From the NCBI GenBank assembly GCA_017418445.1, contig JAFONM010000023.1, positions 1-34,800 of the forward strand: a DNA stretch of 34,800 nucleotides. Reading direction: 5' to 3'. Source of the DNA: Kiritimatiellia bacterium (GTDB lineage: Bacteria; Verrucomicrobiota; Kiritimatiellia; RFP12; UBA1067). Every line of letters starts with the position of its first letter. Positions within the stretch are counted from its first letter, which is position 1. The translations under genes and the position numbers were made by a program. Positions 551 to 32,542 of this stretch are shown here, piece by piece. Below the pieces are notes generated by a model. The model was given only the letters and a program-made list of their open reading frames with translations. It had not been told where the DNA came from and searched no databases.

Positions 551-2065
551 TTACTCCTCGACCGGCTCTTCGACGAAACCGTCGTCAACGATTTCCCGCG
601 CCTCGGTCGTTTCAAACCCCGACACGGCGGCGGTAACGATGAACGCAATGGCCGAAGTGAAGTTCTTGAGTTCGCGCGCAGTAATGCGTCCGAAGAGCCT
701 GAACACCCCTTTCTCCTTCCAGCAGCCGAAGGATATGGAACTGTCCGAAACGGCGGGGAGCGTCATCGTCAGGCTCCTGAACTTCGCGGCAGCCGGATCG
801 TCCCCCATTGCGGCCAGCATTCCGTCGACCATGGCGCGACATTCCGCATAGAGCGACATGACGACCGCGCTGGCGAACTTCCTGCCCCTCAGTTCAGGAA
901 GCGCGGCGTCGAAGCGCTCGGCGGGAGTCGTCGCAAGGGACGTCCCCTTTACGGAAAGCGACATCGCCCACGCAGGAGTCTCGAGAAGAGGCCGCACCGG
1001 AGCGGTGGAGGAGTCGTCAAGACCCTTGAGGAAGGCCGCCGGATCGTCGATCTTCCCGATGGCGTCCTTTCCCTCGCCCATCACGTACTTTCCAAGCTCG
1101 CAGGCATCCAGTTCGCACCTGGCGGCCCTGCCGTCTCGGGACAACCTGACAAAGTCTGTCTTGAATCCCTTGGCGCGCAAGTATTCGAGGACTTCGTCGA
1201 CTGCCGCACTCTGGTCCGCAACTCCGCTCTTCTCGGTCGCGGCCATGGCGACAAGCGACTCCTTGCCGGCGAAGGCCAGGAGTTCGGAGACAGGCTTGAG
1301 GATTTCGCACGTGCGCGAGAGGTCCGATCCCCCGGAAGCGGTGCTATCGGCGGCGAAGTCCAAGCCGAGATCGGAGACGCCAAGCCCCACGCGTCCGCCG
1401 GTGGACTGCAGCAGGACGTCGCAGGCATATTCGATCTCGGCCCTGTCCGCATCCGTGAGTCCCGAGGCGGACAGCACCTCCTCGTTGTCCAGAAGACACC
1501 TGAGACCGTACGAGACCGCCCTGAGCCCCTTCTCCGTGAACTTGACGTCGATGGCGAGTCCGTCGGCGATCCTGTGCCTGCCGGCCTCCGCCAGGACGAG
1601 CCTTGCGCGCTCCTCGTCGCCGCCCGTCGCGACCCACCTGCCGTCCGGAGAGAATATTATCCTGTCGAATCCGGGAAGGACTACGACGCCGTTCGTCTCC
1701 GTCGCGTTCGGATGCTCCTTGAGGAACGTCTCCTTCGTCATGTCGCAGGGATAGACGGCGGAGAGGTCGAGCGTCTCGGCGAAAGCCTCGATATTTGAGG
1801 GCGAAAGGAGCGCCGCGTCGCCGTAGACGACAGCGGTGAGCGTCTCGCCTTCGCGCATCGGTCCGAACTTGTTCGACAGTATGTTGTCGCGAATTCCCTC
1901 GGCCGCCGCCATGCCGATCACCGGCATTCCGCAATGGTCGCCGAGCTTTGCGGCCTGGCGGATGAGCGCGGAAGTATCCGCGACTTCAATCTCAGCCAGC
2001 TTCTCCTGCGCGGCGGACGCGGCAAAAGCCGCGAACGCCGCGGTCAGCGCGACGAGCCGCTTCAC
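551..2065 (-). CDS. Secreted protein of unknown family, tandem paralog B
   Basis: 504 residues, family not recognised. The chosen start is a GTG at 2065 that shares GTGA with the stop of the preceding gene. The frame is open further upstream, but only this start puts a signal peptide (VKRL, hydrophobic Ala-rich core, AASAA|QEK) at the N-terminus. The mature part therefore lies outside the inner membrane. It matches its upstream neighbour over the whole length: a CGMPVIGM-type segment near residues 44-51, FGPMREG, a YPC...TKE segment, ETNGVVVLP, a FSPDGRWVA segment, AMSLSVKG, LPAV.D.SI and RIT..ELKN. Cysteines at the CGMP and YPC sites are shared by both copies and could form a disulfide. The C-terminus is acidic (DDGFVEEPVEE). 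I can assign no catalytic motif. Translational coupling to the paralog suggests that the two proteins work together. Confidence 0.85.
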   Translation of the reverse strand: MKRLVALTAAFAAFAASAAQEKLAEIEVADTSALIRQAAKLGDHCGMPVIGMAAAEGIRDNILSNKFGPMREGETLTAVVYGDAALLSPSNIEAFAETLDLSAVYPCDMTKETFLKEHPNATETNGVVVLPGFDRIIFSPDGRWVATGGDEERARLVLAEAGRHRIADGLAIDVKFTEKGLRAVSYGLRCLLDNEEVLSASGLTDADRAEIEYACDVLLQSTGGRVGLGVSDLGLDFAADSTASGGSDLSRTCEILKPVSELLAFAGKESLVAMAATEKSGVADQSAAVDEVLEYLRAKGFKTDFVRLSRDGRAARCELDACELGKYVMGEGKDAIGKIDDPAAFLKGLDDSSTAPVRPLLETPAWAMSLSVKGTSLATTPAERFDAALPELRGRKFASAVVMSLYAECRAMVDGMLAAMGDDPAAAKFRSLTMTLPAVSDSSISFGCWKEKGVFRLFGRITARELKNFTSAIAFIVTAAVSGFETTEAREIVDDGFVEEPVEE

Positions 2066-3588
2066 TGGGCGTCCCCTTCGTCGCTTTCGTCCTCCCAATC
2101 GTCGTCGCTGCCGCCGACCATGCCCATCTCCCCCGACAAGGTGGGGATGGCGAAAAGCGTGAAGAACGTGGTAAGGTTCTTGAGTTCCTCGGGGGAAATG
2201 CGGACCATTCCCTTCAGGAGCGCCCTGTCCCTCCAAAACGCACCGACGATCGATCCGTCGCCTACGGCGGGAAGCGCCTGGAGCATGGGCTTCATCTTTT
2301 TCACCTGGGGATCGTCCGTCTTAGCCGCGACGACGCCGTCGATGATACTGCGGAAAAACGCATAGAGAGAGAACACGCAGACCGAGAAAGGCTTCTTGGA
2401 ATTCAATTCGGGGACTGTCTTCGCATAGCGCTGCGAAGCGGTCGACGGAAGAGTCACGCCCTTCAGGGAGAGGGACATCGCCATCTCGGGCGAAGCCGCC
2501 CTGAACTTTCCGTCGGAGGCGGGCGTGCAAGCGGCCTGAAGTCCCTGGAGGAAGGCGACAGGATCGGAAAGCCCCTTGAAGGACTTCTCCGCCTCGCCGC
2601 TTGAGACGTACTTGATTATGGACTGGAGGTCGATCGAAAGCCTGCATTCGCTTCCCTTGCGGTCGACGGCGACATAATCGGTCTTGATGCCCTGATTCTT
2701 CAGGTAGGCAAGCACCTTGTCGAGGCAGTCAAGCGAGTTCGCGCTGCCGCAATCGGGCGCCGACGCGCCTACCGCGAGGGATTCCCTGCCGGCGAACGCA
2801 AGAGGGTCGGCCTTCGTGAACGGCTTCTCGCCGCACTTCGCAAGTTCGCTTCCGGTTGCCGGCGTCGCGCTGAAGAGGAAGTCAAGCCCCTTGTCAGACA
2901 TGCGGACAGCCAAGAGCGCCCTCCCGATCTGGGAGATGACGTCAAGAGAGCGGTCCAGCTGGGCGCTCTCGGCCGGAGACATGCCAGATTTCGTCTTGGA
3001 CAGTTCCTTCCGTAGGGAGTCACCGAGAAACTTCATGCCTGCGGACGTAAGGCGGATGTCGAACGCGGCTCCGGCGGCGGGCGTCGTCTTGCCGGCGTCC
3101 TGGAAGGCGTTCTTGATATCCTTTTCCCTGGTTGCGATCGCGACCCACTTGTTGTCGGGCGAGAACTTCATGTATCCGGGAAAGATGACCGGAGGGAGCT
3201 TCATGACGCCGTTGGTCTCGACGGTTCCGGGATTGGCGGCGAGGAACTTCTCCTTGGTCGTCGTGCACGGATAGAGCGCCACAACGCCGAGCGACTCGGC
3301 GAACGCACTCGCACTTTTCGACTCGGACAGCCTGGCGACGTCTCCGGAGACGGAGATGCTGATGCAAGCGCCGTCGCGCATCGGGCCGAACATTTCCGCA
3401 AAGGGATTGGACTGGAGACCCTGAGCCGCCATCATCCCGATCATCGGGAATCCGCACTGCTCGCCGAGCAATGTCGCCTGCCTCGTAATCGACGCGGAGT
3501 CGGCCAGCACGACCTGTGCAAGCTTTTCATCGGAGGCAGAAGCAACGATGGCGACGGCCACTGCCGCAAAACTGATGAGTCTTTTCAT
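2062..3588 (-). CDS. Secreted protein of unknown family, tandem paralog A
   Basis: 508 residues, family not recognised. The ATG at 3588 has an AAAGGA ribosome site about 8 bases upstream and begins a clear signal peptide (MKRLISFAAVAVAIVASAS|DEK). The open frame extends another 29 codons upstream, but that extension has no export signal. The protein aligns from end to end with the 504-residue product that follows, with shared landmarks RQA..LG..CG.P.IGM near 35-51, FGPMR, YPC..TKE, ETNGV, FSPD..WVA, LAFAG.ESL, AMSLS.KG and LPAV.D.SI. The C-terminus is a strongly acidic tail (DDDWEDESDEGDAQ). It lies 47 bases downstream of an aminotransferase gene. A local duplication of an exported, possibly ligand-binding or structural, protein is the simplest reading; no enzyme motif is visible. 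Confidence 0.87.
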   Translation of the reverse strand: MKRLISFAAVAVAIVASASDEKLAQVVLADSASITRQATLLGEQCGFPMIGMMAAQGLQSNPFAEMFGPMRDGACISISVSGDVARLSESKSASAFAESLGVVALYPCTTTKEKFLAANPGTVETNGVMKLPPVIFPGYMKFSPDNKWVAIATREKDIKNAFQDAGKTTPAAGAAFDIRLTSAGMKFLGDSLRKELSKTKSGMSPAESAQLDRSLDVISQIGRALLAVRMSDKGLDFLFSATPATGSELAKCGEKPFTKADPLAFAGRESLAVGASAPDCGSANSLDCLDKVLAYLKNQGIKTDYVAVDRKGSECRLSIDLQSIIKYVSSGEAEKSFKGLSDPVAFLQGLQAACTPASDGKFRAASPEMAMSLSLKGVTLPSTASQRYAKTVPELNSKKPFSVCVFSLYAFFRSIIDGVVAAKTDDPQVKKMKPMLQALPAVGDGSIVGAFWRDRALLKGMVRISPEELKNLTTFFTLFAIPTLSGEMGMVGGSDDDWEDESDEGDAQ

Positions 3589-30384: not shown

Positions 30385-30419
30385 GGTGCCGGGTGCGGGA
30401 AGCGGGCGCCTGGATCAGG
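30385..30419 (+). repeat. G-rich 7-nt tandem repeat before trpS
   Basis: Plus-strand units: GGTGCCG, GGTGCGG, GAAGCGG, GCGCCTG, GATCAGG. This is the least regular of the four tracts. It spans the gap between the activase-fusion stop codon (30415-30417, inside the tract) and the trpS promoter. Confidence 0.4.
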
Positions 30420-32505
30420 CGGAGACGACCCTGCCGAAGACGTTGCCGTAGCGCTTCAGGTTGAGCGCCTCGACGAAGGCCTGTATCTTCGTGACCGTGG
30501 AGCACGGGTCTATCGACGCGTCCATGCAGTCGCCCTCGAGTATGAGGAGCGGGACGCCCGTCTCCTCCATCCTGGCGCGCAGGCGCTTCGTGAACGGCCT
30601 GTCCGCAAGATTGCATCGCCCGAATCCGTGCACGTAGAGGATCATCCCGGAGAGCTTCGCCTTCTTCGCGACCTCCGCGGCGTACTTCGCGCGCAGCGCC
30701 GGGTCGAGGAATCCCGAGGTGAGCATCTTCTCGGCGAGGGACCGTATCGGATTCTTCGGGTCGAGGGAACCCCATCCGATGAAGTTCGTCTCCTCGAACA
30801 CGATCGGCGCGTTGAGCGTGTCCTCGATGTAGTCGAGGTGCTTCGAGGCGTAGAAAGGCGGCAGATGCATCCAGCAGAGACGATGCGTGTCGTCGATGGA
30901 GAAGCGCTTCTCGGCCCACTCCTTCTTCGCGAGAAGCTCCTCGTAGTACTGCTTCTGGATGTCGACGAGGTCCCTGGTGCCCCAGAGCTGGGAGAAGAGG
31001 ACCGCGTTGTAGACCGCCTGCGATCCGCGAACGAGAGGCGGAGAGGTCCAGCGGAGTTCGTTGGACTTCCGGGCCCAGTCGGCGGCCTCGTTCGAGAGTA
31101 CGCAGGCCTCCTCGAGACGTCCGCGGTCGAGCTTCCTGCCGAAGACCTTCTCCATGCGGACAATGGACTCCTCGAGTCCGGCGGCGATGGTGTCGACGGA
31201 GTGGCCGAATCCGATGCTGATGGGCGTCTGCAGCGAATAGAACCGGTCCGAGACTCCGTAGTCCGTGGCGAGGTCCGCGAAGATGCGTTCGCCCTGCTGG
31301 CACGGCTCGCTCGTCGAGACGATGAAGTCCGGCTTCTCGAGATCGGCCCCCTCGAGGACGCGCAGGAAGGAGCACGTCTGCTGGTCGAAGCCCTTCTGTG
31401 CGGCCACGTCGAGCGCGGCCTTGACCTGCTTGGTGCGGCGTCCGACCAGCGCCGCGGCCGTCTCGAGCGTAAGGGTGCGGCAGCCGAATGCGTTCAGTAT
31501 CTCCATCGGGAAGAACAGGTTGCGCCACACGAGCGGCTTCGAGGTGTCGCGGGAGAAGAAGTCGCGCTTCGTCGCATGGATGCGCATCATGACGGACTTC
31601 TGGCGGGTAGGCTCGTAGGCGACCTTCTCCGTCTCGAGGCGTCCGCCCAGCTCGGCGAACTGAAGCGCGAGGACCGCGGCGCCGATCGCACCCATCACCT
31701 GGTGGTACCTGGGGATGATGATTTCGCTTCCGGTGAGTTCCTTGAGGTAGTGCGCCACGGCCGCGTTGGACGCGACCCCGCCCTGGAAGAGTATCCTGCG
31801 CCCGGGGCAGCGCAGGAGAAGCTGTCCGACGCTGTTCAGGATCGTGCGGGCCTGCGCCTTGCACGCGCCGGCGAGCAGGTCGCCGAGCGGGATGCGGTTC
31901 TTGAACTTGTTGATCGAAGTCGCGGAGAGGACGGCGCAGACCGAACTGAACTCGGTGGTCGCCTTGTAGTTCACCTTGCTCGCGATCTCCTCGACGAGAA
32001 CGCCGAGCTTGGCGGCCACGCTGTCGAGGTAGCTGCCGGTCCCGGCGGCGCAGACGCCGGACATCATCGAGGTCCACATCTTCATCGCCTTGTCGAAGAC
32101 CATGCACTTCGAGTCCTGTCCGCCGCAGTCTATTATGGCATCGGCGTCGGGATGGAAATGCTTGGCGCCAGCGACGTGCGCGGACACCTCGCTCACCTGG
32201 AGATCGTAGTCGAGGAACCGCTTCGTGTCCTCCACGATCTGACTGCCGGTTACCGCAGTCACGGCTATGTCCTCCCGGACGACGCCGCTGTCCCTGAGAA
32301 AATCCTCGGTCGTCTTCCTGACTGCGCCCAGGTTGCAGCGTCCGCATCCGGTGCATCTTCCGGTGCATGCGAGACGTCCCGCCTCGACCGGCTGGGTGCG
32401 CTGGTAGGTTGTATTGAGAACCTCGCCCTTATCGTCCATCAGAACGGCCTTGTAGGTCGTCGAACCGATGTCGATACCAAGAAATTTGTGCCTTCGGGGT
32501 GCCAT
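30415..32505 (-). CDS. Fused acyl-CoA dehydratase activase / 2-hydroxyacyl-CoA dehydratase-like Fe-S protein
   Basis: 696 residues. The N-terminal part (about 6-285) is a BcrA/BadF/HgdC-type ATPase: GIDIGSTTYKAVL, DCGGQDSKC, GVCAAGTGSYLD with Cys-152, SSVCAVLSATS with Cys-190 and the FQGGVASN loop. Cys-152 and Cys-190 match the residues that hold the dimer-bridging 4Fe-4S cluster in HgdC. The rest (about 325-696) resembles the HgdB/double-cubane-cluster proteins: LNAFGC, QTCSFLR with Cys-378, STSEPCQQG with Cys-402, GFGRCN with Cys-631 and LEGDCMD with Cys-660. Such pairs use ATP to drive very low-potential electron transfer. An extra CTGRCTGCGRC (47-57) lies in the activase part. The substrate is unknown and no CoA-transferase is nearby. 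The ATG at 32505 follows its promoter by 8 bases. Confidence 0.87.
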   Translation of the reverse strand: MAPRRHKFLGIDIGSTTYKAVLMDDKGEVLNTTYQRTQPVEAGRLACTGRCTGCGRCNLGAVRKTTEDFLRDSGVVREDIAVTAVTGSQIVEDTKRFLDYDLQVSEVSAHVAGAKHFHPDADAIIDCGGQDSKCMVFDKAMKMWTSMMSGVCAAGTGSYLDSVAAKLGVLVEEIASKVNYKATTEFSSVCAVLSATSINKFKNRIPLGDLLAGACKAQARTILNSVGQLLLRCPGRRILFQGGVASNAAVAHYLKELTGSEIIIPRYHQVMGAIGAAVLALQFAELGGRLETEKVAYEPTRQKSVMMRIHATKRDFFSRDTSKPLVWRNLFFPMEILNAFGCRTLTLETAAALVGRRTKQVKAALDVAAQKGFDQQTCSFLRVLEGADLEKPDFIVSTSEPCQQGERIFADLATDYGVSDRFYSLQTPISIGFGHSVDTIAAGLEESIVRMEKVFGRKLDRGRLEEACVLSNEAADWARKSNELRWTSPPLVRGSQAVYNAVLFSQLWGTRDLVDIQKQYYEELLAKKEWAEKRFSIDDTHRLCWMHLPPFYASKHLDYIEDTLNAPIVFEETNFIGWGSLDPKNPIRSLAEKMLTSGFLDPALRAKYAAEVAKKAKLSGMILYVHGFGRCNLADRPFTKRLRARMEETGVPLLILEGDCMDASIDPCSTVTKIQAFVEALNLKRYGNVFGRVVSA

Positions 32506-32513
32506 TGAGGTAT

Positions 32514-32542
32514 ATTTTAGCATTATTCCCACTGACAGTCCA
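32514..32542 (-). promoter_or_regulatory. Promoter of the activase-fusion gene
   Basis: The minus strand has -35 TGGACT (32537-32542), a 17-base spacer ending in TGC, and -10 TAAAAT (32514-32519). The -35 hexamer is identical to that of the beta-galactosidase gene. The -10 ends 8 bases before the ATG at 32505. The -35 directly abuts the stop codon of the GH3 gene. Confidence 0.72.

Follow-up and report, generated by a model that had tools for sequence, protein, structure and literature searches.

The window, by which we mean the whole 34,800-nucleotide stretch analysed here, carries on its minus strand a gene in which a BcrAD/HgdC-type activase and a dehydratase-type acceptor are joined in one chain. 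The frame can also be opened at an in-frame GTG at 32532 (30415..32532, minus strand; 705 residues, protein P0001), and the residue numbers used below are those of P0001, which run 9 above the numbers of the original prediction, counted from the ATG. A start at the ATG at 32505 matches both that earlier numbering and the point at which orthologues begin. The features of the locus are as follows.

30415..32505, minus strand: fusion gene, 696 residues from the ATG, with orthologues beginning near this ATG
31666..32481, minus strand: BcrAD/HgdC-type activase (ASKHA ATPase) domain, residues 18-289, from Pfam, NCBIfam and structure match
32335..32367, minus strand: four-cysteine insertion C56-x3-C60-x2-C63-G-x-C66, invariant in 73/73 fusions and a gap in the alignment with 1hux
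32050..32052, minus strand: C161, predicted as the first of two ligands for a bridging [4Fe-4S] cluster (CAAGTG motif), aligned to HgdC Cys127; 73/73
31936..31938, minus strand: C199, predicted as the second of these ligands, aligned to HgdC Cys166; 73/73
30463..31518, minus strand: HGD-D (HadB/BzdO-like) domain, residues 339-690, from Pfam, with HadB and BzdO as nearest folds
31462..31464, minus strand: E357, counterpart by alignment of the active-site glutamate BzdO Glu65; 73/73
31372..31374, minus strand: C387, cluster ligand by alignment (HadB C84, counted from the alignment; BzdO C95); 73/73
31300..31302, minus strand: C411, cluster ligand by alignment (HadB C117, counted from the alignment; BzdO C128, aligned to within 1-2 residues); 73/73
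30613..30615, minus strand: C640, cluster ligand by alignment (HadB C346, counted from the alignment; BzdO C380, aligned to within 1-2 residues); 72/73 plus one X
30502..30528, minus strand: family-specific cysteines C669 and C677 (GDCMDxxIDPCS), replacing GDQADPR...AQ of HadB; C669 73/73, C677 72/73

The genes flanking the fusion, called with a coding-score gene finder, encode a GH3 beta-glucosidase, TrpRS, ScpA, ScpB and a LysM protein, and, as first reported from the sequence, no CoA-transferase, acyl-CoA dehydrogenase or ferredoxin gene adjoins it in the window. Elsewhere in the window, the minus strand of 551-3561 holds two neighbouring genes, each of about 500 residues, with similar N-termini (ADTSALIRQAAKLGDHCG, ADSASITRQATLLGEQCG); judged by these, they look like a tandem duplication.

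Both halves of the proposed activase-dehydratase fusion score above their Pfam cut-offs: BcrAD_BadFG (PF01869) at residues 18-289 (E = 1e-33; 117.5 bits against 31.5) and HGD-D at residues 339-690 (E = 2.9e-44; 152.5 bits against 28.4). The activase domain also passes NCBIfam TIGR00241 (135.6 bits, cut-off 125.4) and matches the structures 4ehu and 1hux with a Z-score of about 27. Each chain holds the two bridging cysteines expected of an activase, C161 and C199, which are Cys-152 and Cys-190 of the original prediction and whose alignment partner is HgdC (PDB 1hux). The HadI/HgdC activators (archerases; 4eht, 1hux) have in common with this domain the ASKHA fold, the CAAGTG motif and the second bridging cysteine, at an identity of about 28-30%, but they are separate proteins that lack the four-cysteine insertion, whereas the window protein is fused and carries it. 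A further cysteine on a helix of the activase domain, C224 (window 31861-31863), is likewise invariant (73/73).

A survey of fusions, suggested alongside the original prediction and carried out here by searching relatives and the phylum, gave 73 proteins (that of the window included), all with the four-cysteine motif and all from Verrucomicrobiota, the others being 54-77% identical to the window protein. Carriers include Kiritimatiellia, Victivallales, Lentisphaeria and Verrucomicrobia, and relatives are widespread in Lentisphaeria-type bacteria of the gut and rumen. Ten cysteines are invariant throughout the 73: C56, C60, C63, C66, C161, C199, C224, C387, C411 and C669. The first four of these (47, 51, 54 and 57 in the earlier numbering) form the C-x3-C-x2-C-x2-C motif, which indeed lies early in the ATPase fold, between strand 3 and helix 1. 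The question of whether orthologues conserve it is answered by all 73, which keep the four cysteines and G64 at constant spacing, while most spacer positions vary with an entropy of 1.6-3.0 bits. With this combination of invariant and variable positions, the motif is no chance match. The motif is missing from 16 of 16 other activase-like open reading frames (from Verrucomicrobiota, Monoglobus, Acetoanaerobium and Proteus), and a comparison of the four-cysteine loop with solved structures gave no meaningful similarity. Structure prediction, also proposed as a check, put the motif in the loop that connects strand 38-45 to helix 69-81; the cysteine loops themselves were modelled at pLDDT below 50.

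The invariance of the four cysteines suggests that, as originally proposed, the site probably holds an additional cluster. Alternatively, the loop could be a structural zinc site or a redox switch that carries no electrons, which would be compatible with the rest of the interpretation developed below; four cysteines are by themselves no proof of an iron-sulfur site, and the loop is not resolved in the model. We regard this alternative as rather unlikely, since four cysteines spaced so compactly, within 11 residues and around a CxxCGxC core like that of ferredoxins, point more typically to a [4Fe-4S] cluster when they occur in a low-potential iron-sulfur protein of anaerobes.

Two loci of one genus (L079 and L080; family f48, genus g97) have an insertion of about 10 residues directly after the four-cysteine motif, which splits the profile match. 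DUF2229-type activase fusions (acyl-CoA dehydratase activase-related) likewise combine fused activase domains with a cysteine-rich motif, but theirs is C-x2-C-x3-C in another position, and they have no HGD-D match at the threshold used. In these and related activases (L121-L123, L132-L138), the C-x2-C-x3-C motif does not coincide in position with the motif of the fusion and may be a site of its own for a cluster or for zinc.

The acceptor domain is, by both sequence and fold, nearest to the subunits that carry a single [4Fe-4S] cluster. In a profile search HadB was the best match (E = 2.3e-18), followed by BzdO, with weak matches to DCCP and BzdN; VIA-align Z-scores were 36.6 for HadB, 35.9 for BzdO, 32.1 for MbdO, 30.3 for HadC and about 28 for DCCP. 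The best fold match, HadB (3o3m), is the alpha subunit of (R)-2-hydroxyisocaproyl-CoA dehydratase, and its active-site glutamate and three cluster cysteines are aligned in the fusion; we take C84, C117 and C346 to be HadB's cluster ligands. The class I benzoyl-CoA reductase subunits BzdO and MbdO share the fold, the three cluster cysteines and a Glu65 counterpart with the fusion, the BzdO ligands being C95, C128 and C380 and Glu65 its acid/base residue (PMC11971306). BzdO His131 has no equivalent (Gln413/Gly414 take its place, and no histidine follows C411). Moreover, class I benzoyl-CoA reductases have four subunits, including a double-cubane partner, BzdN, whereas the fusion is a single chain. 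NCBIfam models specific to dehydratases, benzoyl-CoA reductases or double-cubane proteins all give scores below cut-off, among them NF052455, the (R)-2-hydroxyisocaproyl-CoA dehydratase alpha equivalog (55.4 bits, 750 required).

The R337-N-L-F-x-P-x-E motif around Glu357 is invariant, and the position of the HadB/BzdO active-site serine (Ser37 in HadB) is Leu339 in all 73 fusions. C640 and C669 lie on loops that follow consecutive strands (629-635 and 662-667 in the predicted secondary structure), so C669 is probably close to the acceptor cluster, and C669 and C677 may cap it. Because the serine has been replaced by Leu339 and C669 and C677 are new, the catalytic behaviour of this cluster may depart from the model.

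These cysteines also admit a reading in which C669 or C677, as fourth ligand, closes the acceptor cluster; the protein would then be no catalyst itself but would use ATP to supply another enzyme with low-potential electrons. C669 is invariant, and its loop comes one strand later than the loop of C640; moreover, catalytic HadB is marked by a fourth site that is open (PMC11574389), and the neighbouring genes have no link to a substrate. We consider a closed cluster a live alternative but an unlikely one, since the invariance of Glu357 and of the motif around it fits catalysis and no partner protein was identified.

The genomic distribution of HGD-D genes bears on whether a second subunit takes part. 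Among 144 genomes of one class (that of genome G063), each at least 85% complete, 80 have an HGD-D match and 74 carry the fusion, as counted by open-frame length from the tabulated matches; in 69 of these 74 the fusion is the sole HGD-D gene. The genome of the window, which is 65% complete, has one HGD-D match, the fusion itself. A second HGD-D subunit, as in the alpha/beta heterodimer of 2-hydroxyacyl-CoA dehydratases such as HadB, is thus missing from most carriers, and the fusion therefore probably works as a homodimer without a separate activator or second subunit.

This pattern weighs against an ordinary (R)-2-hydroxyacyl-CoA dehydratase of amino-acid fermentation to which the activator has merely been fused. 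HadB-type subunits are the nearest relatives by fold and sequence, and the cluster ligands and Glu357 are kept, but the known enzymes need an alpha/beta pair, the active-site serine is replaced, and C669 and C677 are extra. In addition, neither a CoA-transferase nor an acyl-CoA dehydrogenase adjoins the gene in the window or recurs as a neighbour elsewhere. We judge such an enzyme improbable, and an ordinary 2-hydroxyacyl-CoA of amino-acid fermentation is an unlikely substrate.

The only recurrent neighbour is a short Cupin_2 protein, which several families encode directly after the fusion (27 of 73 loci). A diaminopimelate/ornithine-type decarboxylase and a TsaB-like gene usually come next (loci L073-L119, +1 position; e.g. 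L103:7630-7980:-), and the fusion-cupin arrangement has been lost in the clade that holds the window. Because the cupin is common in the class (106 of 144 genomes) and often lies away from the fusion, we did not take the link as functional evidence from which to derive a substrate. The window neighbours, in line with the original prediction, point to no substrate, and neither do the recurrent ones.

The original prediction had described the acceptor as HgdB/double-cubane-like; the dehydratase-type part of this description agrees with the HGD-D match, and the double-cubane part is not supported by sequence, fold or ligands. Of the six cysteines of a double-cubane set, compared using the BzdN ligands (PMC11971306), the inner three are kept and the outer three are absent or not conserved: DCCP C309 aligns with Asn583 (73/73), the next ligand region has no cysteine, and the N-terminal outer-cluster position is variable, with C351 in 15/73. 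Double-cubane membership was rejected on these ligands together with the score against NF040772, the double-cubane protein model (25.4 bits, far below the 350 required). The double-cubane protein and its reductase (6eno, 7yyl) are, like the fusion, an activase-driven acceptor system of the same superfamily, but they are separate chains with the six-cysteine set. A fusion of DCCP with DCCP-R that would reduce small molecules at an [8Fe-9S] cluster is accordingly very improbable: the acceptor resembles DCCP in having no second subunit, and weak DCCP matches exist (E about 1e-5), but the outer-cluster ligands are missing and the HadB/BzdO fold fits better. Since the double-cubane likeness is not supported, the analogy by which small-molecule reduction had been suggested is weak, although the substrate may still be an unusual one.

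We therefore favour, with a probability of about 0.6, a reading in which activase and iron-sulfur acceptor in one chain form a homodimer that activates itself, draws on ferredoxin and works, driven by ATP, as a low-potential reductase or dehydratase. In the systems known so far, two activase chains hold a [4Fe-4S] cluster between them and, at the expense of ATP, drive an electron from the dimer onto the cluster of the dehydratase; one iron of the catalytic cluster is open, and this open fourth site is a hallmark of catalytic HadB (PMC11574389). In the fusion, the two activase domains would share a bridging [4Fe-4S] cluster through C161 and C199 of each chain. A further [4Fe-4S] cluster, held by the four-cysteine loop with its ferredoxin-like CxxCGxC core, would accept electrons from reduced ferredoxin and hand them on to the bridging one. 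Powered by ATP hydrolysis, an electron would then reach the HadB-type [4Fe-4S] cluster of the acceptor domain (C387/C411/C640), where a ketyl-type radical route would lead to reduction or dehydration of a substrate. C669 and C677, whose loop neighbours C640, probably alter access to this cluster. Homologues of POR_N (2-oxoacid:ferredoxin-type oxidoreductase) in 10 of 10 carrier genomes checked are consistent with a low-potential ferredoxin supply; in the window genome the POR_N search was positive and a search for EKR-domain PFOR was negative. We hypothesize more tentatively that this single-chain, self-activating, ATP-driven reductase combines a ferredoxin-like entry cluster with a modified acceptor cluster, in which C669 and C677 lie close to the counterpart of HadB's open iron, and that it either acts on a substrate outside the known CoA-esters or supplies low-potential electrons to another enzyme.

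In the known ATP-driven low-potential systems of this type, pump and acceptor are separate proteins that have to associate and dissociate. A conserved form that unites both in one chain and brings an extra cluster of its own would, if this reading is true, be a compact system for studying gated low-potential electron transfer and would offer a handle on radical chemistry in uncultured Lentisphaeria and Kiritimatiellia of the gut and rumen. Our literature search found no paper on an activase-dehydratase fusion of this kind, and no characterised member was found in the literature searched or among PDB sequences, with a clade search of low sensitivity beyond the phylum. Beyond the phylum, the search covered plasmid, phage and viral collections, where no full-length fusion was found among the relatives, and one pattern-based genome scan, which reaches close relatives only.

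In a quick tree rooted at its midpoint, the window's family (f1) falls in a 15-row clade within a fully supported 27-row set, which also holds family f54, part of f48 and one row of f42, all from another class of the phylum. This placement, together with the patchy presence of the fusion in the window's genus, makes it likely that the genus gained the fusion laterally.
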